From an uncultured Ignavibacterium sp. (GTDB lineage: Bacteria > Bacteroidota > Ignavibacteria > Ignavibacteriales > Ignavibacteriaceae), in assembly GCA_937125135.1 (NCBI GenBank), contig CAKZLD010000238.1, positions 1-39,909 on the forward strand: a stretch of 39,909 nucleotides of DNA. Direction: 5' to 3'. Positions within the stretch are counted from its first letter, which is position 1. Each line of letters begins with the position of its first letter. The notes beneath the pieces were generated by a model that saw only the letters and a list, made by a program, of their open reading frames with translations, searched no databases and had not been told where the DNA came from. The translations under genes and the position numbers were made by a program. Below, one piece after another: positions 1 through 33,198 of the stretch.

Positions 1-2202
1 TTTTACTCTGACATTAATTCTGAGAGAATTTATTTCGGAAATAATATTTACGATTTTGCAACTTCAATATCTTTTGATACAGATTCAATTAACTTTTCAG
101 CTAAAGGATTTATTGAAGATTTGCTGAGTTTCAATTTCTTTTCTTCAAATAAGATTTACGAGGATAAAATCAACTCTAGATTTGATAATCTTGTGTTGAA
201 TTTCAGAGGGATTCCTGTCTCCAACAAAGAACAGATAATGTTATCATATTCAAAAGGTAATATTGAAATTGGTCAATTTAAACTAAAACTTGGAAACGGT
301 TTATTTGAAAGCAAAGGAATTTTTGGTGAATCTTCTGATGGACTTATTGAATTTAGTATATCTGATTTAGAAGGAAGTTCAGTTCTCGATAGATTACTAA
401 ATTTACCAGCTTCGAGCAGAATTAATTCAAAAATTAATCTTGCCGGAAAAGTAACTGGCAGTTTAAGTAACCCGATAGTTTCCTTTAGTTCTGATTTAGA
501 TGATATATTCATAAATAAAAATCCATTTGGCTCAATTAAAGCAGGTATGACTTACTCCGAGCAGATTATAAATATTGATTTAAGACTTATTGAAAAAATT
601 GGAGAGAATATTTTCGAACGACTAACCGTTGCAGGTAACATTCCATTAAAGAGTTCAATCAAAAAGAATGATTCGGTTAATAACAATAATGAAATTGAAT
701 TAAAAGTAATTGCAGATGATTTGAACCTATCTCCGCTTGGTAAAATTTTCCCTCAGGTAGAAGTCAATAATGGATTTATAGAAAGTGAAATTTATATAAA
801 TGGCACTTTGACCAAACCAATTGTTGTTGGATACTTAAATTTAGTTGACATCGCTATTAAGCCTTCGTTTAATAATCTTAATTACTATGTAAACTCAAAT
901 ATCTTCTGGGATGACGAAAAAATTACAATAGAAAATGCCTCTATAACAAACGAAGCCAATATCAGAAATGCCGGGACAATTTTGTGTAATGGTTTTATCA
1001 AACTAAAAGAAATGAGTCTCGATTCTGTTTCTATTACAGCAAAAGGAAAACTAAAAGTGCTGGATCAAATATCCAAAGAAGTTAATCAGTTTATTTACGG
1101 TGATTTGACAATCGAATCTAAATCAGACATTACTTTTTCACTAACTGAAAATGAAATAAGTCTTAATCTTCCTGTAAATATTTCAAAAGCAGATTTGGTG
1201 TTACCACTTTCACGCACCGCATATTCGAATACTTCAGATATCATTTATCGTTTTGCTTCCTCATTCGAAAAATCTGATGTTGAATCAGAACTCGATAAAT
1301 TGGTTGAAGAATTTGAAAGCAGAAGAAAAGCATCAGCCGGCATAAATGGCTCAAAAAGTTTAAACTACAATATTGATGTAAGTATCAGCAATGAAGCGAA
1401 AGTTGTGGTCGTTCTTTCAAAAGAATTAAATCAGGATTTAGTAGCATTGCTTTCTGGAAATATAAATCTGATTTCCAAAGATGGAATCGAACGAACAAGC
1501 GGTCAATTTAATCTTCTTGAAGGTTCAAAACTTTCTTTCATAAAAACATTTGAAGCCAGAGGGAATGTACGATTCGAAAAACTTGATAATCCATTACTTG
1601 ATATAACTGCAACTTACCGAGATTATATCTATCCTGTAACAGAAACAGGAACTTCACAGGAGCAGGAAGTAGCAGTTAAAATTAAACTAAAGGGTCAACT
1701 TAACGAGCTTAATCAGAATTTTGTAAGAGATCCTGAAAATATTGGCGTTTATATCGGAACAGAAAATATTCAGAAGGAACAAAGGGATGAATCTAAAACA
1801 CCTACCGATGCCTTATTCTTTATAATCGCAGGCAAATTCACTGATGGGGCAACTTTGCAGGAAAGAAGCACTGTAGCTTCCACTGCTACAAGTTTTGCGG
1901 GTTCTATAATCGGAAATGTTTTAAATCAGTATCTTGGTGATTATGTAAGAAGTGTTCAATTGAGGCAATTTGGTGATCAAACAAAATTCAGTTTGATTGG
2001 TAAAGTCGGAAATTTCAGATATGAAATAGGCGGGACAACAGAAGTATTTCAGGATTTGAGCCGGGCTAACGTTAAAATTGAATTACCAATTCAACAAAGA
2101 TTAATACTGCGTCTTGAAAGAAAAGAATCTATTACAGATCAATCAACAGTGAATGCCTCTCTTTATAACGAGTTTGGCGTTAAATATAAATTCGAGTTTT
2201 AA
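1..2202 (+). CDS. tamB: TamB-like translocation/assembly protein, C-terminal part (5' end outside window)
   Basis: The reading frame is open from base 1, so this is the C-terminal ~733 residues of a larger protein. The sequence is long, almost entirely beta-rich, with repeated short strands, and shows the TamB (DUF490) C-terminal pattern: an NLLEGSKLSF segment, then a G-x-V-x-F strand, then a P-L-L-D-I-T-A strand near 1500-1610. It ends in LYNEFGVKYKFEF with a terminal Phe, as in the outer-membrane-facing TamB end. TamB proteins span the periplasm and, with an Omp85 partner, help assemble outer-membrane proteins or move lipids. Its stop overlaps the rnr start by one base (TAATG), so the two are probably translationally coupled. 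No Omp85 partner is visible upstream because the window starts inside the gene. The family is fairly sure; the exact role is inference. Confidence 0.82.
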   Translation, partial: FYSDINSERIYFGNNIYDFATSISFDTDSINFSAKGFIEDLLSFNFFSSNKIYEDKINSRFDNLVLNFRGIPVSNKEQIMLSYSKGNIEIGQFKLKLGNGLFESKGIFGESSDGLIEFSISDLEGSSVLDRLLNLPASSRINSKINLAGKVTGSLSNPIVSFSSDLDDIFINKNPFGSIKAGMTYSEQIINIDLRLIEKIGENIFERLTVAGNIPLKSSIKKNDSVNNNNEIELKVIADDLNLSPLGKIFPQVEVNNGFIESEIYINGTLTKPIVVGYLNLVDIAIKPSFNNLNYYVNSNIFWDDEKITIENASITNEANIRNAGTILCNGFIKLKEMSLDSVSITAKGKLKVLDQISKEVNQFIYGDLTIESKSDITFSLTENEISLNLPVNISKADLVLPLSRTAYSNTSDIIYRFASSFEKSDVESELDKLVEEFESRRKASAGINGSKSLNYNIDVSISNEAKVVVVLSKELNQDLVALLSGNINLISKDGIERTSGQFNLLEGSKLSFIKTFEARGNVRFEKLDNPLLDITATYRDYIYPVTETGTSQEQEVAVKIKLKGQLNELNQNFVRDPENIGVYIGTENIQKEQRDESKTPTDALFFIIAGKFTDGATLQERSTVASTATSFAGSIIGNVLNQYLGDYVRSVQLRQFGDQTKFSLIGKVGNFRYEIGGTTEVFQDLSRANVKIELPIQQRLILRLERKESITDQSTVNASLYNEFGVKYKFEF

Positions 2203-4298
2203 TGAAAAAAGAATTAAAATCATTCTTTAAGAAGTTTTCTGATCAATCCTTTAAATCAAAAGAAATTGCCAGAAAACTTGGAATCAAGACCGATCACGAA
2301 TATCAGCAGCTCAAAGCAACTTTATACAAACTCTATCAGGAGAACTATCTGATAAGAATCGGTAAAAAATATAAACTAAACATATTGCCTACCTCAAATA
2401 AAATAACAGGGACTTTATCACTTACCGAAGAAGGTTATGGATTTGTAATTCCTGATAACAAATCTTTGAAAGATATTTTTATTCCCACCAGATATATTGG
2501 AAATGCTTTTAATGGTGACAAGGTTGAAGTTTTATTGTTTGCTACAAAAAAGGGAAAAAATCTTGAAGGACAGATAATCTCTGTAATTTCAAGAAAAAGG
2601 AAAGAGTTTATTGGAGTTCTGAAACAAAAAAAATCTCTGCCTTATATTGTCCCTGAAGAGCCTGATGTTCACAAAGATATTCTCATTGATCCTAAATCAT
2701 TAAAAGATGCAAAGTTTGGAGATAAGGTCGTTGTCGGAAATCTAACTTGGGACGAAGAAACTTCCAATCCGGTAGGAGAAATAATAGAGGTTTTCGGTCA
2801 ACATGATAATCTTGAAGTTGAAGTAGTTTCTATCGCAAGAGATTTTGGAATACCTTTCTCATTCACAAAAAAATCTTTGGATGAAGCAAAAAATATTAGT
2901 CCGATTATAGATAAAAAACATTTATCAGATAGAATAGATTTCAGAGATAAAATAGTTTTTACAATAGATCCCGATGATGCCAAGGATTTTGATGATGCTC
3001 TTTCAATTGAAAAAAACGAGAACGGTAATTTTTTAGTTGGAATTCACATCGCAGATGTAAGCCACTATATCATTCCTGATTCAAATCTTGATAAAGAAGC
3101 TCTTGCAAGAGGAAATAGTGTTTACCTTGTGGGTAAAGCAATTCCAATGCTTCCTGAAGAATTATCCAACGGAATTTGTTCCTTAAAGCCAAATGAAGAT
3201 AGGCTTACTTATTCGGTAATTGCAGAGCTTACACCAAGAGGAAAAGTTGTAAATCATCAGATAAAGAAAAGTGTTATAAACAGCAAAAGAAGATTTACTT
3301 ACGAAGAAGTTCAGGAAATTATTGAAACAGGAAGTGGTGATTTTGCAGATGAAATATTGGAGCTCGATAAACTTGCTAAAACTCTTCGAAAGAAAAGAAT
3401 GAAAGCAGGCAGTTTTGATTTTAACACATCTGAAGTCAAATTCAAACTTGATGAATCCGGATATCCAATTGAAGCTTTTGTAAAAACTATGAAAGACAGC
3501 AACATGCTTGTTGAAGAGTTTATGCTTCTTGCAAATAAAATAGTTGCCGAGGAATTTTCAAGGAATAAAAAACTTGCCTCAAAACCTTTTGTTTTCAGAG
3601 TGCACGACTTACCTGATCAGGATAAAATAAATGAATTTGCAAGATTTGTTAAATCTTTGGGATATCAATTAAATCCATCAAACATTAAACGACCAACAGA
3701 ATTTCAGAAAGTACTTGAACAGGCGAAAGGAAAAGCAGAAGAAAATTTAATCAATGAGTTAGCAATTCGCTCAATGGCTAAAGCTTTTTATTCTACTCAA
3801 AATATCGGGCATTACGGATTGGGATTTAAGTATTACACTCATTTCACATCCCCAATCAGACGATATAGTGATTTAATTGTTCATAGACTACTATTCGGCT
3901 ATTTGCAAAAGAAGACAAAAAATCTTTATGATAATGAAGAATTAGAAGAAATTTGTGAACATATTTCTGCCACCGAAAGAATCGCAATGGAAGCTGAAAG
4001 ATTTTCTGTTAAACTTAAACAAGTCGAACTTTTGTCTAATCAATTGGGTTATGAATTTGATGCTATTATTTCTGGTATAGTTCATTTTGGAATTTTTGTT
4101 AAAATTACAACCATCTTAGCCGAAGGATTGATTAGACTACGCGACCTTGATGATGATTTTTACATCTATGATGAAAAAAAGTATGCTATTATTGGAAGGC
4201 GAACAAAAAAAATGTACAGACTTGGTGATAAAGTTACAGTTAAACTTGTTAAAGTAAATTCCGATAAAATGGAATTAGATTTTACAATCGTTGATTAA
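2202..4298 (+). CDS. rnr: Ribonuclease R (3'-5' exoribonuclease)
   Basis: This is a 698-residue processive 3'-5' exoribonuclease that degrades structured RNA. Order of domains: an N-terminal winged-helix-like segment (about 1-60), two cold-shock OB folds (about 65-215), the RNB catalytic domain with the signature DPDDAKDFDDA at 256-266, where Asp256, Asp262, Asp264 and Asp265 are the expected Mg2+ ligands, and a C-terminal S1 domain (about 615-698; motif SGIVHFGIFVKI). It is shorter than E. coli RNase R (813 aa) and lacks the long Lys-rich tail, which is common outside the gammaproteobacteria. The ATG overlaps the tamB stop (TAATG). It is followed 16 bases later by the metallopeptidase/barrel gene, so all three are probably one transcript. 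Confidence 0.95.
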   Translation: MKKELKSFFKKFSDQSFKSKEIARKLGIKTDHEYQQLKATLYKLYQENYLIRIGKKYKLNILPTSNKITGTLSLTEEGYGFVIPDNKSLKDIFIPTRYIGNAFNGDKVEVLLFATKKGKNLEGQIISVISRKRKEFIGVLKQKKSLPYIVPEEPDVHKDILIDPKSLKDAKFGDKVVVGNLTWDEETSNPVGEIIEVFGQHDNLEVEVVSIARDFGIPFSFTKKSLDEAKNISPIIDKKHLSDRIDFRDKIVFTIDPDDAKDFDDALSIEKNENGNFLVGIHIADVSHYIIPDSNLDKEALARGNSVYLVGKAIPMLPEELSNGICSLKPNEDRLTYSVIAELTPRGKVVNHQIKKSVINSKRRFTYEEVQEIIETGSGDFADEILELDKLAKTLRKKRMKAGSFDFNTSEVKFKLDESGYPIEAFVKTMKDSNMLVEEFMLLANKIVAEEFSRNKKLASKPFVFRVHDLPDQDKINEFARFVKSLGYQLNPSNIKRPTEFQKVLEQAKGKAEENLINELAIRSMAKAFYSTQNIGHYGLGFKYYTHFTSPIRRYSDLIVHRLLFGYLQKKTKNLYDNEELEEICEHISATERIAMEAERFSVKLKQVELLSNQLGYEFDAIISGIVHFGIFVKITTILAEGLIRLRDLDDDFYIYDEKKYAIIGRRTKKMYRLGDKVTVKLVKVNSDKMELDFTIVD

Positions 4299-4314: not shown

Positions 4315-7300
4315 ATGAAGAAATTATTGATTTTATTTTTAATACTTGCCACTGCGTTTGAAGTATTCGCACAATTTGGAAAAAATAAAGTTCAATACAA
4401 AGATTATGTTTGGTATTACATTCAAACAGAGCACTTCGATATTTATTTCAACGAAGGTGGAGAAACTTTAACAGAATTTACTGCACAAGCAGCAGAAGAT
4501 GCGTTAAAATCAATTCAAAATACTTTTAATTATAAAATCAGCAGCAGAATCACTTTAATTATTTACAACTCTCAAAATGATTTTCAGGAAACAAACGTAG
4601 TTGACGTTTATTTGAGTGAAGGAATTCAGGGTTTTACTGAGTTATTTAAGAACAGAGTAGTTGTTCAGTTTACAGGCTCTTATAAACAATATAGACATTT
4701 AATTCACCACGAGCTTGTTCACGCCGTAATGAACGATATGTTTTATGGCGGATCAATTCAAAACATAATATCAAATAATATTACACTTTCATTTCCACTA
4801 TGGTTTTCAGAAGGATTAGCTGAATATGAATCTTTAGGTTGGGATGTTGACACTGATATGTATATCCGTGATGCAATAATAAGTGGAACATTACCAGACT
4901 TAATGAATCTTGATGGTTATTTTGCTTATCGCGGTGGGCAATCAGTTCTTTATTTTATTGCAAATAAGTATGGTAAACAAAAAATTGCCGAACTAATGAA
5001 TAAAATAAAAGGAACAGGCAATTTTCCGGAAGCATTCAAACAAACTATTGGAATTGATTTAAAGGAATTTGGTGAAAGATGGAAAAAGGAAATCAAAAAA
5101 ACTTATTGGCCAGATATTGCTACAAGACAAGATCCCGAAGATTTTTCTAAAAGACTAACTAATCCTAAAAATGATGATGGATTTTTCAATTCAAGCCCTG
5201 CACTCTCACCACAAGGAGACAAAATTGCTTTTATTTCGAATCGCGATTTCTTCTTTGATGTCTTCCTGATGGATGCAGCAGATGGAAAAATTATTAAAAA
5301 ATTAGTTCGTGGAAACAGAACTCCTGACTTTGAAGAGCTTAACATTTTAACCCCGGGTTTAACTTGGTCACCTGATGGTAAAAAAATCGCTCTCTCTGCA
5401 AAAAGTAACGGATTCGATAATATTTATGTTATTGATATAAACACAGAAAAAAATGAAATTCTCCCAATTAAAATGGATGGAATTAGCAGTGTTACTTGGT
5501 CTCGCGATGGGAAAAGACTTGCATTCGTGGGACAGAACAAAAAACAATCTGATATCTATATCTATGATTTTGAAACTAAAGAACTGAATAATCTTACTAA
5601 TGATATTTTTGGTGATTATGATCCGAGTTGGTCGCACGATAATTCTCAAATTTATTTTATATCAGACCGTGGTAATTACTTGAAAACTGATTATCACTTA
5701 ACCGGCGATGAGGTTTATAAGATTGACTATCATCAAAAAGATATTTACAGAATTAACGTCAATGACAGAACTATTAAAAGAATTACCAATTTGCCAGAAA
5801 GTGATGAAACTTCGGTCAATGAAGACGCCGAAGGAAAAAATCTGATACTGATTTCTGATATCAACGGAATAAATAATATCTACACAATTCCAATATCTGA
5901 TTCCGAAATAATAAGTGAATCGGAAATGAAACCAATTACTAATTCATTGACAGGATTGTATCAGCTCTCTTTGTCCTATGATACAAAAAAATTAGTATTC
6001 TCAACTTTATCTCAATCCGTTTTTAATATCTTTTTAATGAATAATCCATTCGAAAGCAAAACTCAATTAACACAGCTTGAGCCAACTTTATATATACAAC
6101 AGCTTCGTAATAAAGATATTAAAAGTGACGAGGTAATAATCATTACTGAATCTGAGACCAAAGATTCCGAAAAAGATTCGAAAAATGATATTTCAATATT
6201 TACCGGAAACATCGTGGTCAGTCCTGATACTGCTGACAAAGAAGGAATTGATTATTCGAGATATATTTTCGGAAGACAGGATACAACAAGTTCCAAAAAA
6301 GATATTACTAACCTTTTTACTCCAAATGATAATCTTGATGACAATGGTAATTTTAGAGTCAGAAAATATAAAATCACTTTTGCACCTGATCTAGTTTATG
6401 CAAATGCCGGCTATAGTACTTTTTACGGTTTGATTGGAACCACTATTCTTTCATTCAGTGATGTACTTGGTGATCACCGTTTAATTGGAGTTACAGGTTT
6501 ACAAATTGATTTAAAGAATAGCGATTACGGATTAGCTTATTATAATTTGGGCGGAAGAATAAACTTCGGAGTAGAAGGTTTTCACACTGCAAGATTTGTA
6601 AATATCATTAAAGGGAATTATAGCTATTTATATCGTTTCAGAAACCTGCAAGTTTCTGTTAATGCTAATTATCCCTTGAACAGATTTTACAGAGTTGAAA
6701 CTGGTCTTAGTTATATGAATGTTCGAAGTGAAAATCTTGATAACATCAGATTTCCATTGCAGGAAGATAATTTTGTTGTACCATCTCTTTCATTTGTTCA
6801 CGACAATATTCTATTTGGTTATACAGCACCAATCGAAGGAACCCGATACAGATTCGACACATACGGAAATCCCGGACTAAACAAAAAGAAATTGAGTTTT
6901 TGGACAATTACTGGTGATTACAGAACCTACTTTAGATTTTTCACGGATTACAGTTTTGCAATGCGTTTTTCAATGGGCTATTCTTCAGGAGCAAATGCTC
7001 AAAGGTTTTTCCTCGGTGGAACAGAAAACTGGATTAACAGAAGTTTTGCAACAACAGAAATCCCGCTAGAATCAAATACTGATTTTGCTTTTCTTACAGT
7101 TGTTTTACCAATGCGTGGCTTTGATTATTCGGAAAGAATAGGAACAAAGTATGCTTTGATGAACTATGAACTTCGTTTCCCCTTAATTAGATATATCATA
7201 CCAGCTGGATTACCTATTTTCTTCAATAATATTCTTGGTGTTGCCTTTTTAGATGTTGGAACTGCTTGGACGAAAAACGAGCGTCTTCAATTATTTACCC

Positions 7301-7467
7301 GTAACGATAGAGATGAAATCAAAACGAAAGATTTACTTATCGGAACTGGTCTGGGAACAAGAGTTTATTTATTCGGTTTCATCTTAAAGTTTGATTATGC
7401 TTGGTCTTATACAGTTGAGAAGTGGTCTAAACCAAAATTTTATTTTTCTTTAGGATTAGATTTTTAA
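4315..7467 (+). CDS. Exported HExxH metallopeptidase - PD40 propeller - Omp85-type barrel fusion
   Basis: A protein of 1050 residues with a signal peptide (residues 1-19, ending VFA-Q). Residues about 30-260 resemble peptidase-MA-like gluzincins: His132-Glu133-Leu-Val-His136 is an HExxH zinc site and WFSEGLAEY (163-171) supplies the probable third ligand Glu166 or Glu170. Residues about 275-610 contain repeated PD40/TolB-like propeller blades (SPQGDKIAFIS, SPDGKKIALSA, SRDGKRLAFVG, SHDNSQIYFIS). After an acidic, Ser/Asp-rich linker (about 625-690) comes a barrel of about 360 residues with an MRGF motif at 933-936, matching the Omp85 loop-6 (V/I)RG(F/Y) signature, and a C-terminal Phe (FSLGLDF). 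No POTRA domain is apparent. A strong AAGGAG at 4301-4306 sits 8 nt before the ATG. I infer a surface- or periplasm-facing protease anchored by its own barrel; substrate unknown. Confidence 0.85.
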   Translation: MKKLLILFLILATAFEVFAQFGKNKVQYKDYVWYYIQTEHFDIYFNEGGETLTEFTAQAAEDALKSIQNTFNYKISSRITLIIYNSQNDFQETNVVDVYLSEGIQGFTELFKNRVVVQFTGSYKQYRHLIHHELVHAVMNDMFYGGSIQNIISNNITLSFPLWFSEGLAEYESLGWDVDTDMYIRDAIISGTLPDLMNLDGYFAYRGGQSVLYFIANKYGKQKIAELMNKIKGTGNFPEAFKQTIGIDLKEFGERWKKEIKKTYWPDIATRQDPEDFSKRLTNPKNDDGFFNSSPALSPQGDKIAFISNRDFFFDVFLMDAADGKIIKKLVRGNRTPDFEELNILTPGLTWSPDGKKIALSAKSNGFDNIYVIDINTEKNEILPIKMDGISSVTWSRDGKRLAFVGQNKKQSDIYIYDFETKELNNLTNDIFGDYDPSWSHDNSQIYFISDRGNYLKTDYHLTGDEVYKIDYHQKDIYRINVNDRTIKRITNLPESDETSVNEDAEGKNLILISDINGINNIYTIPISDSEIISESEMKPITNSLTGLYQLSLSYDTKKLVFSTLSQSVFNIFLMNNPFESKTQLTQLEPTLYIQQLRNKDIKSDEVIIITESETKDSEKDSKNDISIFTGNIVVSPDTADKEGIDYSRYIFGRQDTTSSKKDITNLFTPNDNLDDNGNFRVRKYKITFAPDLVYANAGYSTFYGLIGTTILSFSDVLGDHRLIGVTGLQIDLKNSDYGLAYYNLGGRINFGVEGFHTARFVNIIKGNYSYLYRFRNLQVSVNANYPLNRFYRVETGLSYMNVRSENLDNIRFPLQEDNFVVPSLSFVHDNILFGYTAPIEGTRYRFDTYGNPGLNKKKLSFWTITGDYRTYFRFFTDYSFAMRFSMGYSSGANAQRFFLGGTENWINRSFATTEIPLESNTDFAFLTVVLPMRGFDYSERIGTKYALMNYELRFPLIRYIIPAGLPIFFNNILGVAFLDVGTAWTKNERLQLFTRNDRDEIKTKDLLIGTGLGTRVYLFGFILKFDYAWSYTVEKWSKPKFYFSLGLDF

Positions 7468-8758: not shown

Positions 8759-11464
8759 TTAATAGTAATATCCGATTGAAAAATAAAAAAGAATATCACC
8801 CCAGCTAATCTGATTTTTGGGAATAGTGTTTTTTATCAAAAAACTTCTTCCAACTGAAAATTCAGCAGGACCAATTGGAGTATCAAAAGATAGAGTCGAA
8901 CCGATGCCGTGTTTTAAGTCTTTGAATCTTATCTGTTCCTGATTTTCCCAGACATTTCCTAAATCATATCTCGCAGAAATATAAGTTGGGAAGAAAATTT
9001 TAAATGGCAGTTTTAATCTATAAGAAAGTGATGTGGTGAATATCTGCCTTCCCCGATATTCAAAATCTCTCATTCCGAAAAATGAATCTTGTCCGCCTAG
9101 AGAAAAATGCTGAGAAAGAGGAAGTGTCTTATCTGCAAAGCCCCATCTGAATCTTGTCGAAATTATGTTATCTGTAAAAAGCGATAAATAATTTTTATAA
9201 TCGAAAGCAAAAACAGTATAACCAAGTTCGCTTAAGAGGAAAGATTGAGCAGTTTCGTAATAAGCATTAAAGTAAATTCCTTTTTCGGGGAATGGAAATT
9301 TATCCTGCGTATCAATTGTTGAACTGATTTTTAATGTTAGAAATTTTGTATTGTATGGCTCAACAATATTGTTAGAAAGATTTTTTATTTCATCAATCTG
9401 ATATTTGCCCTCGAAAATCAGATTTCCGAATCTTTCGACCTGAGTACCCAAAGCAAGTGAAACACCATAATTGATTTGTCTGTATTCACCGTTTACTAAT
9501 CTCGAAAAACGCGTTTCAGTTAAATTATTTGTTTGAAATGTATAAATATCTCTGAATGAATGAAACACATTTAATTTATAAGTGAAATATGTGTTGAATA
9601 TCCTGTTTGATTTATGATCAATCGAAAACAATCTGTTTCTTGTGCCCGTGAAGAAAGTTAGCCCAATTTCACTTCCGGTACCAAATAAATTTTCTTCACG
9701 AACATCAACACCAATTTGAAATTTATAATCGTTATCAATTCTGTTTGAAAATCTGATCAATCCTGTTGGCTTTTCGGTTACTATAATGTTCAGTGTATTT
9801 TGACCATTTTTTTCGGCGACAGTTATTTCCACAAATTCAAAAAGCCCTGTGCTTCGTAAATTTCTTAAACCTTTTTCAATATCTACAATCTTAAAAAAGT
9901 CGCCAACTGAAACGGGAAGTTCTCTTGTAATTACATCATGATCTGTTTTCTCATTTCCTGAAACTTCAATTTTGGATATTATGCCTTCATCAATAAACAC
10001 GATAAGTCTATTAGTTTCTTCTTCGAATCTTATTTCCTGAACTTTTGCAAGTGAAAGTCCTTCTTCTCTATAGATGGAAATTAATTTGGTTAGCGCCTCC
10101 GAAAGTTTGATTGTGCTATACGGATGATTTACAACTTCTGTAAATATCTCGTTAATGTTTGATGATGGAATCTGAGATACTCCAAATAACATCAGATTTT
10201 TAACTAAAGGATTTTTTTTCTTAATCAAGGTCAACTTTGTTTTAGTTGAATCAAAATTTGCAGTGATTGAAAGATCATCATAGTAGCCTGTGGCAAACAA
10301 TTTTTCTAATTGAATCTGAATATCGGTATTCAACACAGAATCTGAGTTTATAAAATCTTTAAAGTATAAAATCTCAGATGAATCGAAACTGCTATCAAAT
10401 TGTAAATTTTTTAAGAAAATTTTCTCGCTCGAAATCTTTTTTTGATAAATCTCATTTACTCTTTCTTTTATTTCATTAACAAACTTCAATGAATTTTCAT
10501 ATCCGAGTAAAATCAAACTATCAACTTTGGAAAAATTAGTTGATGTATAATCCTTAAGTTCAGGAGAGATTACGATATCTGCTTGAGTTAACTGTTTTTT
10601 ATTCAGCTTTCTAATTGGAATACTCACTATCTGATCAGCCACAATCCACGGATATTCAAGTTCAGATTCAGACCACAGAGGACTTGTAACATCAACAGCG
10701 ATTACATAATCAGGATTTTCTGAGCGAGCAATTTCAACAGGAACATTCGCAACTAATCCTCCATCAACAAGAATCAGAGAATCATATTTAACTGGAGCAA
10801 GGAAGAATGTTACCGATGAACTGGCTCTGAGAGCTTTACTAAGTGAACCCGAACTTAAAACGACAATATCGCCTGTTATAAGATTTGTACATACAGCTCT
10901 AAATTTCGCTCTGAGTAAATCAAAACTTTCATCTGAATGTAATGGTGCATCAAAGGTAAGAATATTTAAATAGTTAGATAATTTCTGACCATCATTAAAT
11001 GAAGTAGGAATAATCGGAGTTAATCCATCAAGTCCGAGAGTTAAAAATGATTTATCTTGAATCAATTTTTGTTCAACAAATAAATCTCTTCTCTTATCAC
11101 GGCTATTAAAAGTTAATAAATCATTCCAATCTGTATTAATTGCAATACTTTCAAGCTGATTTACAGAATACCCGGCAGAATAAAGTCCTCCGACAATTCC
11201 TCCCATACTTGTTCCAACAATAATATCAGGCTCAATTTGATTTTCAATAAAAGATTTTAAAACACCAATTTGAGATAAGCCTCTTGCCCCACCACCACTG
11301 AGTGCAAGTGAGATAACAGGTTTGTTTGCCGAAACCTTTGCGGTAAGATTGTACGGGAGTAACTTTTCCTTTTTAGGAATTTGGAAAGTGTATTCTGATT
11401 GTGGGTGTCCGTTTACAAAAAGAGTAAATATTAGAAAAAATAAAATTTTTGGAAAACGATTCAT
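8759..11464 (-). CDS. Patatin-like phospholipase with POTRA domains and Omp85 barrel (type Vd secretion-like)
   Basis: A protein of 901 residues with a signal peptide (about 1-22). The patatin domain (about 48-330) has the oxyanion GGGARG at 57-62, the nucleophile motif GTSMG with Ser86, and the DGG motif with Asp234, giving the Ser-Asp dyad of patatin lipases. Residues about 340-585 look like two or three POTRA repeats (one has ISKIEVSGNEKTDHDVITREL). A BamA-like barrel runs from about 585 to the end (SIGYYY); the loop-6 motif is changed to MRDF. The layout matches PlpD/FplA type Vd autotransported lipases but is longer than PlpD (728 aa), with extra periplasmic sequence. It starts 24 nt after yidC. 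Lipase activity is inferred from the intact dyad. Confidence 0.88.
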   Translation of the reverse strand: MNRFPKILFFLIFTLFVNGHPQSEYTFQIPKKEKLLPYNLTAKVSANKPVISLALSGGGARGLSQIGVLKSFIENQIEPDIIVGTSMGGIVGGLYSAGYSVNQLESIAINTDWNDLLTFNSRDKRRDLFVEQKLIQDKSFLTLGLDGLTPIIPTSFNDGQKLSNYLNILTFDAPLHSDESFDLLRAKFRAVCTNLITGDIVVLSSGSLSKALRASSSVTFFLAPVKYDSLILVDGGLVANVPVEIARSENPDYVIAVDVTSPLWSESELEYPWIVADQIVSIPIRKLNKKQLTQADIVISPELKDYTSTNFSKVDSLILLGYENSLKFVNEIKERVNEIYQKKISSEKIFLKNLQFDSSFDSSEILYFKDFINSDSVLNTDIQIQLEKLFATGYYDDLSITANFDSTKTKLTLIKKKNPLVKNLMLFGVSQIPSSNINEIFTEVVNHPYSTIKLSEALTKLISIYREEGLSLAKVQEIRFEEETNRLIVFIDEGIISKIEVSGNEKTDHDVITRELPVSVGDFFKIVDIEKGLRNLRSTGLFEFVEITVAEKNGQNTLNIIVTEKPTGLIRFSNRIDNDYKFQIGVDVREENLFGTGSEIGLTFFTGTRNRLFSIDHKSNRIFNTYFTYKLNVFHSFRDIYTFQTNNLTETRFSRLVNGEYRQINYGVSLALGTQVERFGNLIFEGKYQIDEIKNLSNNIVEPYNTKFLTLKISSTIDTQDKFPFPEKGIYFNAYYETAQSFLLSELGYTVFAFDYKNYLSLFTDNIISTRFRWGFADKTLPLSQHFSLGGQDSFFGMRDFEYRGRQIFTTSLSYRLKLPFKIFFPTYISARYDLGNVWENQEQIRFKDLKHGIGSTLSFDTPIGPAEFSVGRSFLIKNTIPKNQISWGDILFYFSIGYYY

Positions 11465-16276: not shown

Positions 16277-18007
16277 ATGAATAGAATTCTCATTTTGTTT
16301 ATTACTACTTTTAGTCTGATTTTTGCCCAAAGCCCAATGAATAAGATTTCTCAGAATCTTGCTTCAAAATTTCATACACAATCATCCAATCATACATTTC
16401 ACATTTGGGTTTATTTCACAGATAAAGGTGAGCAGATTGAAAATTACTTTTCTAATCCCTCATCTGTAGTTTCAGAGAAAAGTTTAATTAGAAGGCAGAA
16501 AGTCAATTTATCAATTGACTTTTCAGATCTACCAGTAAATAAATCTTACATTGAACAAATCAAATCATTTGGTTTTGAAATCAAACAAAAATCGAGATGG
16601 TTTAATGCTGTAAGTGGATTTGCCAATAAATCAGTAATAAACGAAATATCAAAACTTGGTTTCGTAAAGAAGATTGATATTGTAAAATCATTCTCAAAAT
16701 CAAAATCTAATTTGGAATTTGAAGAGAGTGTTTTCTTAGAAACCCAAAAACAAATTCAGCCAGAAAATACTTTTCTACTTGATTATGGTAACTCTTTCGC
16801 ACAAGTAAATCAAATCAATGTTCCGGCAGTTCATAACCTTGGCTACAATGGAAACGGAGTTACAATTTGTGTAATGGATGCTGGATTTAATAATCTTGCT
16901 CACGTTGTCTTTAGTACGATTGATATTTTAGCAACTTGGGATTTTGTAAATGGCGATCCAAATGTTGGTGATGAAAATGATATGGGAAGCGGTTCACATG
17001 GAACTTATGTACTTTCTGTTCTTGGAGGATATGCTCCCGGTTATTTAATTGGTCCCGCATATCGAGCAAAATTTTTATTAGCTAAAACAGAGAACACAGA
17101 CAGTGAAACCCCTGTTGAAGAAGATAACTGGGTTGCTGCATTAGAGTGGGCTGACAGTATCGGTGTTGATTTGACTTCAACATCTCTCGGTTATTTAGAT
17201 TATGATTTTCCGTTCACAAGTTATACTTGGCAAAATATGGATGGTAATACCGCACTCATAACAAGAGCAGCAGATCTTGCAGTTAAAAAAGGAATTGTTG
17301 TAGTAAATTCAGCAGGTAATGAAGGAAGCAGAGGGACACCAAATACTTTAATGGCTCCTGCTGATGGAGATAGTGTTTTTGCAATTGGTGCTGTTGATAA
17401 TACCGGTTTAAGAGTTTCTTTTAGTTCTTATGGACCAACTGTGGATGGAAGAATTAAACCGGATTTTATGGCAATGGGAACAGGAGTGGTTGCTGCAAGA
17501 GCATTTAACCAAACTCAATATACTACTGTAAGTGGAACATCATTCAGCTGTCCACTTACTTCAGGAGCGATTGCTTTATTGCTTCAGGCTAATCCAAATC
17601 TAACTCCGATTCAATTGCGAAATATTTTAAGACAAACTTCATCACGAAGTAGTAATCCGGATAATTATTATGGCTGGGGAATAATAAACACACTTTCGGC
17701 ATTAAATCAGATACTGGGAGTAGAAGAGAATTCTATTCCAAATGAGTTCGCACTTTTTCAAAACTATCCTAACCCTTTCAATCCTTCTACAATAATTAGT
17801 TGGAAGATGGCAGAGAGTGGTTGGGTGTCGATAAAGTTATACAACTCACTTGGTCAGGAATTAGAAACGATTGTTGATGACTATTATGATAATGGCATTC
17901 ATTCAAAAACTTTCTCAGCTCCTCCCAAACTTTCAAGTGGAGTATATTTCTACCAGATAAAATCGGGTAATTTTATTGATACAAAAAAGATGATACTTAC
18001 AAGATGA
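16277..18007 (+). CDS. Subtilisin-like (S8) serine protease with T9SS sorting domain
   Basis: A 576-residue exported protease. The signal peptide is about 1-17 (ILILFITTFSLIFAQS). An inhibitor-like prodomain (about 40-145) precedes the peptidase domain (about 175-475) with the catalytic triad Asp201 (VMDAGF), His241 (GSGSHGT) and Ser422 (SGTSFSCP); the oxyanion Asn lies in NSAGNEG. The C-terminal ~85 residues are a T9SS type A sorting domain, with NYPNPFNPST, a central LYNSLGQE strand and a SSGVYFYQIKSG strand, ending KKMILTR. The type IX system would cross the outer membrane with this domain and remove it; no T9SS machinery gene is in the window. AGGA at 16267-16270 lies 6 nt before the ATG, overlapping the metG stop, so it is probably translated from the metG transcript. 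Confidence 0.93.
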   Translation: MNRILILFITTFSLIFAQSPMNKISQNLASKFHTQSSNHTFHIWVYFTDKGEQIENYFSNPSSVVSEKSLIRRQKVNLSIDFSDLPVNKSYIEQIKSFGFEIKQKSRWFNAVSGFANKSVINEISKLGFVKKIDIVKSFSKSKSNLEFEESVFLETQKQIQPENTFLLDYGNSFAQVNQINVPAVHNLGYNGNGVTICVMDAGFNNLAHVVFSTIDILATWDFVNGDPNVGDENDMGSGSHGTYVLSVLGGYAPGYLIGPAYRAKFLLAKTENTDSETPVEEDNWVAALEWADSIGVDLTSTSLGYLDYDFPFTSYTWQNMDGNTALITRAADLAVKKGIVVVNSAGNEGSRGTPNTLMAPADGDSVFAIGAVDNTGLRVSFSSYGPTVDGRIKPDFMAMGTGVVAARAFNQTQYTTVSGTSFSCPLTSGAIALLLQANPNLTPIQLRNILRQTSSRSSNPDNYYGWGIINTLSALNQILGVEENSIPNEFALFQNYPNPFNPSTIISWKMAESGWVSIKLYNSLGQELETIVDDYYDNGIHSKTFSAPPKLSSGVYFYQIKSGNFIDTKKMILTR

Positions 18008-18042: not shown

Positions 18043-19144
18043 CTAATTTTCATTAAACTGTAACAGATAAGCACGAATAAATCTATTCAGGTCGCCATCC
18101 ATAACACCTTGCGTGTCGGATGTTTCTACGTTTGTACGATGATCTTTAACCATGTTATAAGGATGAAAAACATAAGATCGAATCTGACTTCCCCATTCAA
18201 TTTTCATTTTGCTTTTTTCAATTTCAGCTTGTTCAGCTTTTTGTTTCTCCAACTCTAATTGATAAAGTCTTGACTTAAGCAACTTCATTGCATTTTGTCT
18301 GTTTTGCAACTGAGATCTTTCCGTTTGGCACGCAGCAACAATACCTGTTGGAATGTGAGTTATTCTTACAGCAGTTTCGACTTTATTAACATTTTGACCA
18401 CCTTTGCCACCACTTCTGAAAGTATCTATTTTCAAATCCGAAGGATTAATTTCGATTTCAATAGTATCGTCAACTTCAGGAATAACGAATACAGAGGCAA
18501 AAGAAGTATGTCTTTTCTTATTGGCATCGAATGGAGAAATTCTAACCAATCTGTGAACACCATTCTCTGCTTTCAGATAACCGTATGCATACTCACCTTC
18601 AACTTCAACAGTGGCAGATTTTATTCCGGCACCATCACCTTCAAGCAAATCAATGATAGTCATTTTATAACCATTTTGTTCGCCCCATCTCAAATACATT
18701 CTCAACAACATTTCTGCCCAGTCTTGTGCTTCCGTTCCTCCCGCACCAGAGTGAATTGTAAGAATACAATTTCGATGATCATCTTTTCCGCTTAACATAC
18801 TCCGGAATTCGGCAGATTCGATCAATTCTTCAAGAGATTTTATTTCAGAATGAATTTCATTTTCAAATGAAGCATCTTCCTCTGCCTGTGCTAAAAGAAT
18901 AATCTCTTCGGTCGAATCAGCTTTCTGATCGAGATTTTTCCAAAGGTCAACCCATTGCTGAAGACTTTTTATTTCCTGAAGAACTTGTTGAGCGGATTTT
19001 TGGTCATTCCAGAAATCTGATTCCTCAGATTTTTTCTGAAGTTCTTTTATCCGATTTATCTTTTTATCAACGTCAAAGATAGCTCCGCAGATTATTTACA
19101 CGGATTTTATAAGAATTTACTTTTTTAATTTCATCTTCGTACAT
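18043..19144 (-). CDS. prfB: Peptide chain release factor 2, expressed by programmed +1 frameshift
   Basis: Release factor 2 recognises UGA and UAA and triggers peptide release. The gene is in two frames. ATG at 19144-19142, with AGAGGA at 19156-19151 as ribosome site, starts 23 codons (MYEDEIKKV...LRSYL) that stop at TGA (19075-19073). The +1 frame resumes with GAC at 19074 and encodes 343 residues ([15 protein letters not shown]...), for a total of 366 aa against 365 in E. coli. The GGQ motif is in [12 protein letters not shown]; the anticodon-like RF2 tripeptide region lies in the preceding domain. Annotators who miss the shift will call only a truncated 260-residue protein starting at an internal TTG near 18825. 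It is convergent with the S8 protease gene, with no clear terminator between them. Confidence 0.95.
19073..19086 (-). promoter_or_regulatory. prfB +1 programmed frameshift site
   Basis: On the minus strand the sequence reads GGAGCTATCTTTGAC. CTT (19078-19076) is the slippery codon, TGA (19075-19073) the in-frame stop followed by C, and GGAG (19086-19083) the internal Shine-Dalgarno-like stimulator, 4 nt before CTT. This is the classic autoregulatory RF2 signal: low RF2 slows termination at UGA and favours slipping to TTT, after which GAC is read. Confidence 0.95.
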
Positions 19145-28521: not shown

Positions 28522-31500
28522 ATGAAAAAATTATATTTACTATTTTTTTTCATTTTTATAACTCTGAGAGTTTCAGCACAAATTGATACCTCAATAATTT
28601 TTTCTGAGATCATGTTTAATCCAATAAGCGGTAACAATGAGTTCGTTGAGATTTACAATCTAAGCTCCACCTCATCTGTAAACCTCGCTGGATTGAAGAT
28701 TAAATATTACACCTCAACTCCTGATTTAATAATTGATGCTGGCTTTGGAACAGTTCTGCCGCCAAATTCTTACGCAGTAGTTTTTGAAAATGATTATGAT
28801 TTAACAAGCGGGATTTATTCGGGACTTGTTCCACCAAATGCTTTGATATTGAAAATATCAGATAATTCTTTTGGAACATCAGGAATGGCAAACACAACAA
28901 GCCGACCACTATGGCTTCTTCGTGCCAATAATGATACTATTGATGCATATATCTATTCAGCGAATAATTCAACATCATTCTCTGATGAAAAAATTATTCT
29001 CAACAGAGATTCATCTCAAACTAACTGGGCAAATTCTTTGATTGTTAACGGAACACCGGGATTTAAAAATTCTGTTTCACCAACGAATTATGATTTACAG
29101 TTAGCTTCATTAATTTTTAATCCGGAGTTTCCCATCTCTGGAAGTAATGTTACGGTAACTGCCAAAGTGAAAAATGTTGGAATTTTAACCGCACAAAATT
29201 TTGTTGTCAGATTATATAATGATTTAAATTTTGATTCTACTGCTCAGACAAATGAATTAATTTTTTCACAAAACATATCTTCTCTTTTAAGTAATGATTC
29301 GATCAACGTAAATCATACTATCCTCTCTCCTCAAATTGGATTATATCAGATAATTGCCCAAGTGTTTTTCAATGAAGATGAAAACCCAAACAACAACAGA
29401 AGAATCGGTAGATTCACTGTCAGTCCGCCAGGAGCACAGTACAACGATATTGTGATAAACGAGATAATGTATGCTCCATCTTCTCCGCAACCAGAATGGA
29501 TAGAGTTGTTGAATAAAAGTTCTAATCCAATTAACCTGAAAAAATGGAGAGTGTTTGACGCTTCTTCTTCTGTATTGATTACAAGTCAGGATTTTGTTTT
29601 ACAACCAGATTCATTTGTTGTGATAACTGCTGATTCATCAGTATTAAATTATTTCCCAATCACATCAAGAATAATTAGAGTTTCACTGCCGGCACTAAAT
29701 AATAACGGGGATGCTGTTGTTATAAAAGATTCTCTAAACTTCATTATTGACTCACTCTTTTACTTACCAAGTTGGGGTGGTAATACTGGCGGAAGGTCTC
29801 TCGAAAGAGTTTTCAAAGACGCTTCAAGTACAGAGCCATCCAACTGGAAAACATCATTGAGTCCTTTTAGAGCAACTCCTGGCAGAATAAATTCTGTAAC
29901 TCCGAAAGATTATGATCTTGCAATTACTTCCTTCAATCCACTAAAAACTTTTGCAGTTGTTGGTGAAGAAATTCAGTTTAAGGTGGGAATAAAAAATGTT
30001 GGACTAAATCTGATATCTTCCTCATCAGCTTTACTATATCGCGATGCAAATCAGGATTCAATACCACAAGCAAACGAATTTATTAGTCAGAATGTAATCC
30101 AATCTTTGAATGTGAATGATAGCACAACATTTATCATCTCAACTAACAACTTTGATGAAGGCATTAACAGATACATATTGAAACTTCTGTCATTTTCAGA
30201 TGATGATACATCAAATAACATTGCTTTATCATCGGTAAATGGAGTTTCAATCAATGAAATCCGAAACGATCTTGTAATCAATGAAATAATGTATGCACCA
30301 CAAAGTCCCGAACCCGAGTGGATAGAAATTTATAATCGTTCAAACAAAGTAATTAACCTGCTAAGCTATAAAATTGCAGATGCTGTGGATACACAGAAAG
30401 TAGTTTTCTCAAGCACTGTACTACAGCCACAGGAGTACTTAGTAATTTCAAAAGATTCTTCTATCTTTAATTTATACCCAATAAACTCTAAAGTAATAAT
30501 CAGAAGTTTTCCATCATTAAATAATAGTGATGATAAAATAATTTTACTGGATTCGCTGAATCGTGTAATAGATTCACTTCAATACTTTTCACGATGGGGT
30601 GGAACAAATGGTAAATCGCTTGAAAGAATAAGCAGTGAACTTGCATCAACAGATTCATCCAATTGGAAAACATCCTCAAGCAAATTGAAAGCTACACCCG
30701 GATGGATCAATTCCGTTACTCAGAAAAACTATGATGTGCAAATTTCTGATATTATTTTTAGTCCACGATTTCCGATTTCTGGTGATAATGTTTCCATATC
30801 ATCGTTGATTAAAAATATTGGGAAGAATTTTGCAACAATTACCACAAAACTTTTCGAAGACACTGATTTGGATTCAATCCCAGACATTCTGTTAGAAACG
30901 AAAGCACAAATCAATATTGGCAGCTTGGACTCAATATCTGTTTTGTTCAATTATCAAATTCAGAATATTCAAAGTGAAAGAGCATTTTTTGTTCAGGCAG
31001 TATTTTCTGCAGACGAGGATACATCGAACAACTATTTCTATAAAAGAATTCAGTCAGGATTTCAGTTTAACAATATTGTCATCAACGAAATAATGTTTGC
31101 TCCAATCGGAGGTGAACCAGAGTGGATTGAACTTTATAACAAAACAGATTTTCAAATCAACTTAAAAGGATGGCGAATCTCTGATGTAATTACAACTCCT
31201 CAATCAACAGAAATCAAAAATGATTTTTTCATTCTTCCAAAATCTTACGTTGTAATTAGCAAAGACACATCCATTTTTAACTTTCACAGAGTTATTCCTT
31301 CTCCAGTATTAAGACTTAATTTTGCTTCGCTGAATAATGATATTGATGGGGTTATTCTAAGAGACAATCGCGGACTTAGCATTGATTCGGTTTTTTATTC
31401 GAATCAGTGGGGAGGAACGAATGGATTTTCATTGGAAAGAATTTCAATTAACTCACAATCAAATCTATCATCAAATTGGGCAAGCAGTTTGGACAATGAG

Positions 31501-33198
31501 CAAAGCACTCCGGGAAGAATAAACAGCATTACACCAAAGCAGGAAGATTTGTCTGTAACTGATTTGTTGTTCAGTCCAAGATTTCCTACGTTAGGACAGA
31601 ATGTAAACGTATCAGCTAAGATCAAAAATTTCGGTTCGAATCGTTCCTCAAGTTTTGAAGTCAGATTTTACATTGATAGCGACTCGAATAATGTGGTAGA
31701 TCAGTTATTGGGTGTTTCTACCGCTAATAATGTAAATCCATCTGATTCAATAATTATCAATTGTCCGAATCGAATAACAAATCTCAATAAAAAAATTTTA
31801 GTTGCTGCAGAAGTTAAATATTCAAATGATGAAGACACATTAAATAATTTTATTGAAAAGTTTATTGAGCCGGGTTTTGCAGAAGGCTTGATTAAATTCA
31901 GTGAAGTAATGTATAATCCCGCTGATAATAAACCAGAATGGATAGAGCTTTATAATTCATCTTCTGATTCAATTAACATTAAAAACTGGAGTATAAGTGA
32001 TATACTAACAACTCCGACAAAAGGATTTATTACTAATCAGGATATTTATGTTAAACCTCAAGAGTATTTCATAATTACAAAGGACACATCCTTTAATAGA
32101 TTTTATCCTGATGTAACCTCAAAAATATTTTATACTAACTTTGGAACGTTGGGAAATACTTCAGATGGAATAATTTTATATGACTTCAGAAATGGAATTA
32201 TTGATAGTTTGTTCTACCGTTCAAGTTGGGGAAATAAAAAAGATGTTTCTCTTGAAAGAATCTCTTTCAATCAATTGACGAACGACAGTACAAACTGGAC
32301 TCTCTCGATTAGTAGAAACGGTAGTACTCCCGGCAAAGAAAATTCTATTAACAATGCTCCTCTCTATCAGAGAAACTCAGTAGTCTTCAATGAAATTATG
32401 TTCGATCCTGATATTGATAATAGTGAGTTCATCGAGTTCTATAATATTTCAGATGATCCCGTAAATATTGGTGGATGGTTTATCAGCGATGGGAATGACA
32501 ATAAATTTAGATTAAGTAATTCAAATTTCAGTTTGCCTCCAAAGTCGTATTTTTTATTGGCAGCCGACTCGATCACAATTTCAAAATATAATTTGCAGTC
32601 ATCAGAGAATATTAATATAGTTGGTAAATCTGACATCAGTCTTTCAAACAGCGGTGAAATAATTTTATTAAAAGATGTTCTTGGAAGAGTTATTGATTCA
32701 ATTTATTATTCACCGAAATGGCACAACCGAAATTTTACAAATACAAAAAATCGTTCGCTTGAAAGAATAAATCCGTTTTTGAATTCTAACGAGCCGTCGA
32801 ATTGGAATTCAAGTGTAAGTGAAATCGGAGCAACACCAAATAAAACCAATAGTATTTTCACCATCAACCCAAACTCTCAGTCAACTTTATCAGTTTCACC
32901 AAATCCATTTTCTCCTGACAATGATGGATTTGAAGATTTCTGTATTATAAATTATAATCTTACTCAGACAGTTGCTCAGGTAAGAATTAAAATATTCGAT
33001 AGCAAAGGTAGATTAGTAAGAACATTATTGAATAATCAACCGAGCGGCTCAAGTGGTTCAGTAATTTTCGATGGTAAAGATGATGATGGAAGAACTTTGA
33101 GAATTGGTATCTATATTATTTTCATTGAAGCTTTGAACGATAATTCAGGAGTTGTGGAGACTAATAAGACAGTGGTTGTTGTTGCGAGAAAATTGTAA
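28522..33198 (+). CDS. Large exported protein with six lamin-tail domains alternating with CARDB domains
   Basis: A 1558-residue protein with a signal peptide (LYLLFFFIFITLRVSAQ). Six lamin-tail (LTD) domains begin near residues 28, 309, 583, 850, 1123 and 1286; each opens with a form of INEIMYAP...PEWIELYN. Four CARDB-like Ig domains (each opening YD(L/V)...F(S/N)PxFP...G) sit after the first four LTDs, making a ~270-residue module repeated four times. The C-terminal ~100 residues (from SVSPNPFSPDNDGFEDF, with IKIFDSKGRLVRTL and LRIGIYIIFI) form a FlgD-like/T9SS-type sorting domain. In bacteria LTD domains occur in surface and extracellular proteins, often with nucleases, but no nuclease domain is visible here. 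It may act as a long surface fibre or adhesive spacer; this is inference. Confidence 0.87.
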   Translation: MKKLYLLFFFIFITLRVSAQIDTSIIFSEIMFNPISGNNEFVEIYNLSSTSSVNLAGLKIKYYTSTPDLIIDAGFGTVLPPNSYAVVFENDYDLTSGIYSGLVPPNALILKISDNSFGTSGMANTTSRPLWLLRANNDTIDAYIYSANNSTSFSDEKIILNRDSSQTNWANSLIVNGTPGFKNSVSPTNYDLQLASLIFNPEFPISGSNVTVTAKVKNVGILTAQNFVVRLYNDLNFDSTAQTNELIFSQNISSLLSNDSINVNHTILSPQIGLYQIIAQVFFNEDENPNNNRRIGRFTVSPPGAQYNDIVINEIMYAPSSPQPEWIELLNKSSNPINLKKWRVFDASSSVLITSQDFVLQPDSFVVITADSSVLNYFPITSRIIRVSLPALNNNGDAVVIKDSLNFIIDSLFYLPSWGGNTGGRSLERVFKDASSTEPSNWKTSLSPFRATPGRINSVTPKDYDLAITSFNPLKTFAVVGEEIQFKVGIKNVGLNLISSSSALLYRDANQDSIPQANEFISQNVIQSLNVNDSTTFIISTNNFDEGINRYILKLLSFSDDDTSNNIALSSVNGVSINEIRNDLVINEIMYAPQSPEPEWIEIYNRSNKVINLLSYKIADAVDTQKVVFSSTVLQPQEYLVISKDSSIFNLYPINSKVIIRSFPSLNNSDDKIILLDSLNRVIDSLQYFSRWGGTNGKSLERISSELASTDSSNWKTSSSKLKATPGWINSVTQKNYDVQISDIIFSPRFPISGDNVSISSLIKNIGKNFATITTKLFEDTDLDSIPDILLETKAQINIGSLDSISVLFNYQIQNIQSERAFFVQAVFSADEDTSNNYFYKRIQSGFQFNNIVINEIMFAPIGGEPEWIELYNKTDFQINLKGWRISDVITTPQSTEIKNDFFILPKSYVVISKDTSIFNFHRVIPSPVLRLNFASLNNDIDGVILRDNRGLSIDSVFYSNQWGGTNGFSLERISINSQSNLSSNWASSLDNEQSTPGRINSITPKQEDLSVTDLLFSPRFPTLGQNVNVSAKIKNFGSNRSSSFEVRFYIDSDSNNVVDQLLGVSTANNVNPSDSIIINCPNRITNLNKKILVAAEVKYSNDEDTLNNFIEKFIEPGFAEGLIKFSEVMYNPADNKPEWIELYNSSSDSINIKNWSISDILTTPTKGFITNQDIYVKPQEYFIITKDTSFNRFYPDVTSKIFYTNFGTLGNTSDGIILYDFRNGIIDSLFYRSSWGNKKDVSLERISFNQLTNDSTNWTLSISRNGSTPGKENSINNAPLYQRNSVVFNEIMFDPDIDNSEFIEFYNISDDPVNIGGWFISDGNDNKFRLSNSNFSLPPKSYFLLAADSITISKYNLQSSENINIVGKSDISLSNSGEIILLKDVLGRVIDSIYYSPKWHNRNFTNTKNRSLERINPFLNSNEPSNWNSSVSEIGATPNKTNSIFTINPNSQSTLSVSPNPFSPDNDGFEDFCIINYNLTQTVAQVRIKIFDSKGRLVRTLLNNQPSGSSGSVIFDGKDDDGRTLRIGIYIIFIEALNDNSGVVETNKTVVVVARKL

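Follow-up and report, generated by a model that had tools for sequence, protein, structure and literature searches.

A POTRA-less WD40-Omp85 protein of Ignavibacterium and other Bacteroidota with an invariant zinc-peptidase motif, a tamB-rnr gene-order link and a motif-less clade

The last gene of a compact row, tamB-like - rnr - gene, in an uncultured Ignavibacterium sp. encodes a protein of the POTRA-less WD40-Omp85 type with a zinc-peptidase motif that is invariant. Its link in gene order is a deep one, and in a related clade the motif is missing. A zinc-peptidase-like domain, a propeller and an Omp85-type barrel lie on one chain, as had been proposed from the sequence and as is now confirmed by Pfam, a scan of family members and structure models (Table 1). 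This layout is common to many bacteria of the same phylum. The reading we favor, with a probability of roughly 0.5, is a periplasmic peptidase or chaperone, anchored in the outer membrane, linked to outer-membrane assembly or quality control and connected with TamB. Coordinates refer to the window, i.e. the whole analyzed stretch of 39,909 nt, unless another contig is named.

Table 1. Features of the peptidase-propeller-barrel gene, its product and its upstream neighbors
Feature	Window position	Residues	Strand	Basis and remarks
TamB-like gene, C-terminal half, cut by contig end	1-2202		+	profile A3 positions 748-1481 at 13-2199
rnr (RNase R)	2202-4298		+	TIGR02063 3.4e-223, above cut-off; 16 bases before the gene; recurrent upstream neighbor
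Peptidase-propeller-barrel gene	4315-7467	1-1050	+	1050 aa; signal peptide, Peptidase_MA_2, PD40/TolB-like propeller, linker, Omp85 barrel
Signal peptide, N-terminal, type I by eye	4315-4371	1-19	+	sequence reading; lipobox Cys absent
Peptidase_MA_2 domain	4489-5097	59-261	+	Pfam E 1.1e-12; 31/31 members
HELVH	4708-4722	132-136	+	H132, E133, H136 invariant 62/62
WFSEGLAEY	4801-4827	163-171	+	W163, E166, G167, E170 invariant 62/62; third zinc ligand presumably E166 (or E170)
TolB-like six-bladed propeller	5134-6057	about 274-581	+	VIA-align with TolB model 9a2l and 1crz; PD40
Linker, poorly conserved	6058-6387	about 582-691	+	mean identity 0.19 at 601-650; pLDDT <50
Omp85-type barrel (predicted), loop-6 MRGF at 933-936	6388-7464	about 692-1050	+	VIA-align with BamA 9ccg and 9n2f; R934/G935 conservation

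The gene is a single intact open reading frame with an ATG start, no inner stops in translation and AAGGAG a few bases 5' of the ATG. Translation places HELVH and WFSEGLAEY at the residues named in the original prediction, with MRGF following and Phe as the last residue of the protein, as stated there. A fusion or frameshift artefact was rejected in view of the one intact frame and of full-length relatives with the same domain order in many genomes. In the Pfam scan of the protein, PD40 (5.3e-15) and Peptidase_MA_2 each exceed the Pfam cut-off; POTRA is not among the 12 families matched at E<=1, and the window protein itself does not reach Omp85 (PF01103) at this threshold. In NCBIfam the protein matches TolB at 1.2e-35, which is below the cut-off, and BamA marginally over residues 932-1047 (0.013). 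Among the 31 family members scanned with Pfam, PD40 and Peptidase_MA_2 are found in all, and Omp85 (PF01103) in 15 at E<=0.01 (best 7.3e-15). POTRA is absent among the 25 shown of 26 Pfam families matched in these members, and the predicted lack of POTRA domains thus holds both for the protein (E<=1) and for the families shown.

Three lines of evidence, namely Pfam matches in relatives, a paralogue and structure models, agree that the last ~360 residues form a predicted Omp85 barrel. The paralogue, encoded in the same genome (contig C206), exceeds the curated Pfam cut-off for Omp85. Of the AlphaFold models, the full-length one has a mean pLDDT of 51.7, and the barrel-only one, built from 12 sequences, has 61.7; confidence in both is only moderate. 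Foldseek with the barrel-only model returned BamA or TamA chains in all 50 rows shown; in VIA-align this model matches BamA 9ccg (Z 21.2, rmsd 5.2, 294 residues), with CdiB and FhaC chains also listed. The barrel of the full-length model matches BamA 9n2f (Z 22.8, rmsd 3.7, 304 residues), and its residues 692-1049 match BamA 8xnb (Z 22.1). Closure of the barrel, on which the original prediction depended, is borne out in outline, as counting by eye gives 16 strands in both models if a short, poorly modelled strand before loop 6 is included. The RGF motif falls between strands 11 and 12 in both models and is strongly conserved in non-redundant full-length relatives (R934 in 62 of 62, G935 in 61 and F/Y936 in 53). 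Relative to the paralogue, loop 6 carries an insertion of about 30 residues between its GG and RGF motifs. The predicted fold and the loop-6 RGF motif are those of BamA and TamA barrels, but POTRA was not found here.

VIA-align matches residues 274-581 of the full-length model to TolB model 9a2l with Z 27.2 (rmsd 2.7, 248 residues) and the propeller to the crystal structure 1crz with Z 27.1 (rmsd 2.3, 241 residues). The likeness to TolB is in the six-bladed propeller, whereas TolB exists as an independent periplasmic protein that has an N-terminal domain of its own but neither barrel nor peptidase. The idea that the propeller takes the place of POTRA domains was upheld in part: the propeller is present and POTRA is undetected, but a linker some 110 residues long and of low conservation separates it from the barrel, which argues against rigid POTRA mimicry and leaves rigid docking unsupported.

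The peptidase domain was studied in an alignment of 62 rows, the window protein included, from which copies with identical last 600 residues and proteins shorter than 1000 residues had been dropped. Both parts of the Peptidase MA clan signature, HExxH and a downstream Glu, are present at the sequence level, and none of the 62 non-redundant full-length relatives, which are 33-83% identical to the window protein, differs at H132, E133, H136, W163, E166, G167 or E170. Judged from the alignment, such invariance is more than chance would be expected to give. M1 peptidases have a W-x-x-E-G motif, and from this analogy we take E166 to be the likely third zinc ligand. Residues 1-159 have pLDDT <50 in the full-length model, the sole one containing this region. 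Searching PDB sequences with the profile of the peptidase domain returned nothing at E<=5, and no gluzincin appeared in the structure comparisons, whose reach is limited to the propeller and barrel. The flagellinolysin-type HExxH peptidases (NF033876) are matched by all 31 peptidase domains (best 1.4e-10), but the window domain scores 36.9 bits against a curated cut-off of 205, and flagellinolysins are flagellin fusions, not outer-membrane barrels.

The distribution census covered one phylum, in a sample of 296 genomes. Matches at E<=1e-3 were obtained in 273 of them, many of the weak ones being propeller-only (e.g. G010, G029 and G057). The 73 listed genomes that share the class or are more closely related all match, none of them worse than 5.2e-83. 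With rows counted by hand and three matchless genomes absent from the list, this puts the class figure at no less than 73 of 76. The named relatives come from Ignavibacterium, other Ignavibacteria or Bacteroidota MAGs, and a scan of viral contigs gave no relatives. A paralogue group of about 943 residues (group B) is found in 33 of 41 close relatives (hand count, matches of at least 46% identity) and keeps HExxH in the copies inspected. The paralogue of the studied genome (L065:8750-11581, on G000:C206) is 943 aa long and 28% identical; it carries HExxH and WFVEGLAEY, and its loop 6, of the form GG-x4-RG, lacks the insertion.

A profile search of 21 more distant genomes gave matches at E<=1e-10 in 19. 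Full-length copies in 12 of the 21 (Bacteroidota) form group D, none of whose 12 copies has HExxH: no row retains more than one of H132, E133 and H136, and E166 is kept in two, while W163 and G167 are kept in all 12, together with the remaining architecture. Three of these 12 genomes (G037, G064 and G178) also carry an HExxH copy (group C); none was seen among the matches inspected in the other nine. Group D had been delimited by the missing motif before tree construction. In the tree, built by a quick method from 31 of the 62 rows of group A (the window protein and its full-length relatives) and 28 other sequences, with L129 on a long branch, groups A, B, C and D each make up one side of a branch (support by this method 94, 100, 100 and 100, respectively). 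Since the motif is present in groups A, B and C as well as in the wider Pfam family, its loss in group D is the simpler reading. Pfam Peptidase_MA_2 was matched in one of eight group-D proteins tested, below the cut-off; the N-terminal domain of this group is divergent, its putative identity being given by the family alignment. Retention of W163, G167 and the architecture in the motif-less copies suggests a binding role beside catalysis.

In the row to which the gene belongs, the TamB-like gene overlaps rnr by one base. A contig break divides the TamB-like gene, with one part at window 1-2202 and the other half at the end of another contig (G000:C236:986-3280); these two contig halves are the sole A3-type TamB homologue of the genome. 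Its homologues match the NCBIfam TamB model in nine of nine cases, below cut-off, and Pfam TamB (PF04357) in two of nine (best 1e-35). In this genome PF04357 has no matches at E<=0.01, and thus the TamB-like name is taken from the sub-cut-off NCBIfam matches and these two homologues. Gene order was compared in 38 loci with long flanks, eight from named records and 30 from other genomes; in three of the loci (L063, L064 and L068) a longer antisense frame overlapped the family gene, and neighbor counts there were taken from a separate listing. Upstream of the family gene there is rnr in 21 of the 38 and a TamB-like gene in 20, and these loci come from several families within the phylum sample. 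Neither neighbor is found upstream in the other 17, and neither in any of 15 further loci (12 of group D and three of group C); hence, the tamB-rnr linkage is not obligatory. Moreover, RNase R is a cytoplasmic enzyme encoded in the same row, so a shared neighborhood need not mean one function.

Other genes of the window encode a subtilase with a Por_Secre_tail sorting domain (16277-18007, plus strand), a 941-residue protein with the same sorting domain (36835-39660, minus strand) and a 1558-residue protein (28522-33198, plus strand) that is likely to be a cargo of type IX secretion, as it matches lamin-tail six times, contains CARDB and ends in a C-terminus resembling CHU_C/FlgD. The prfB frame (18043-19095, minus strand) starts just after the stop upstream of IFDVDKK, resembling the programmed frameshift that is usual for release factor 2. 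A second enzyme-Omp85 fusion, a PlpD-type protein with patatin, POTRA and Omp85 parts in this order, is encoded at 8759-11464 on the minus strand, some 1.3 kb away from the studied gene and adjoining yidC. The genome as a whole encodes a separate POTRA-BamA (C234), two further POTRA-Omp85-like proteins (POTRA recognized by eye) and one patatin-Omp85 protein. The presence of the separate BamA led us to reject replacement of BamA as a role for the studied protein.

The original prediction had supposed that the layout might already exist in databases as a family, and such a family is indeed described. Heinz and Lithgow (2014, PMC4104836) defined a POTRA-less "WD40-Omp85" subfamily, compared it with a BamA-BamB fusion and counted POTRA-less subfamilies as Omp85 members. 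As in that subfamily, a TolB-closest beta-propeller lies here N-terminal to an Omp85 barrel and POTRA is lacking, and membership is assigned here on architecture, while a peptidase domain is unmentioned in the subfamily description as available to us (PMC4104836). The protein differs from classical Omp85 proteins, which have at least one POTRA domain, and from TamA and TamL in that, by Pfam, no POTRA precedes the barrel. The Omp85-"Metallo" proteins of the same paper (PMC4104836) have a hydrolase called metalloprotease by the authors joined to the barrel, but their domain is PF00149, not Peptidase_MA_2, and a propeller is unmentioned in the accessible text, where periplasmic quality control and surface delivery are discussed as alternatives. 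PlpD (patatin-Omp85, type Vd) also has a hydrolase domain N-terminal to an Omp85 barrel, but it combines patatin with POTRA instead of a zinc peptidase with a propeller, and its enzyme domain is periplasmic (PMC11116518). Our literature search found no paper joining Omp85, PD40 and peptidase, and the phrase "WD40-Omp85" in one paper; the protein is unmentioned in the available parts of three Bacteroidota BAM/TAM studies (PMC12611786, PMC12578637 and PMC12045153). No earlier description was found of the peptidase domain, its motif invariance, the loss in one clade or the tamB-rnr link.

Omp85 proteins keep their N-terminal domains in the periplasm. PlpD, the tested enzyme-Omp85 fusion behind the type Vd idea, also has its enzyme domain in the periplasm of P. 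aeruginosa (PMC11116518). On these two grounds the propeller and peptidase are placed in the periplasm. For this protein we infer the periplasmic side, catalysis, a substrate or client and a TAM/BAM link, which together would give the following picture. The exported protein would insert its Omp85-fold barrel into the outer membrane with both termini periplasmic, the propeller and zinc peptidase hanging in the periplasm. The propeller may bind a client or a partner that the peptidase would trim or remove, while the barrel would hold the enzyme at the insertion site, possibly in functional connection with the TamB-type bridge encoded two genes upstream. This last connection is argued from the row order, the tight spacing and the single A3-type TamB homologue, and against it we count the separate BamA and the two POTRA-Omp85 proteins, which could serve TamB.

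Three other readings were weighed against the periplasmic peptidase or chaperone. In the original prediction the anchor of the protein itself would display or deliver the protease, with the barrel translocating its own peptidase to the cell surface or displaying it there in a new type V-like layout. This proposal found no support: although the barrel has the Omp85 fold, FhaC-like relatives export proteins, and the long flexible linker could thread through, the propeller and a folded zinc domain would need to cross the pore unfolded, and no POTRA was seen by Pfam in the protein and 31 members. As the enzyme domain of the analogue PlpD stays periplasmic (PMC11116518), type V surface display is ranked low, as highly doubtful. 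A plain anchor, with the peptidase acting on periplasmic, cell-wall or incoming peptides and no role in outer-membrane assembly, is possible although we think it rather unlikely. Peptidase_MA_2 is a broad family, and nearly half of the long loci (17 of 38) lack the tamB-rnr neighbors, as would suit such a role, but an anchor would hardly need the Omp85 hallmarks that are nevertheless kept (R934 and G935), and one clade retains the architecture in the absence of the active site.

The gene order and the single TamB homologue could also mean that the protein substitutes for TamA as the outer-membrane partner of the TamB-like protein from the same row. TamA is thought to bind TamB through POTRA, but no POTRA domain was detected here, and other loci of the genome encode, in addition to BamA, two proteins of the POTRA-Omp85 type. 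Rows of BamA and TamB do exist in other phyla (PMC4494059), and even so we regard the substitution as improbable.

It is conceivable, though we hold it only tentatively and consider it on balance unlikely, that the family is an unrecognized phylum-wide branch of outer-membrane biogenesis with proteolysis built into an Omp85 machine, in which the propeller as adaptor and the peptidase would edit or clear clients handed over by TamB, and in which the peptidase would have turned into a pure binding domain in one lineage. The motif-less clade with its retained architecture offers a natural comparison for separating the catalytic role from the binding one. If the favored reading is true, a widely conserved, uncharacterized Omp85 protein would combine proteolysis with the handling of outer-membrane proteins in a single polypeptide.
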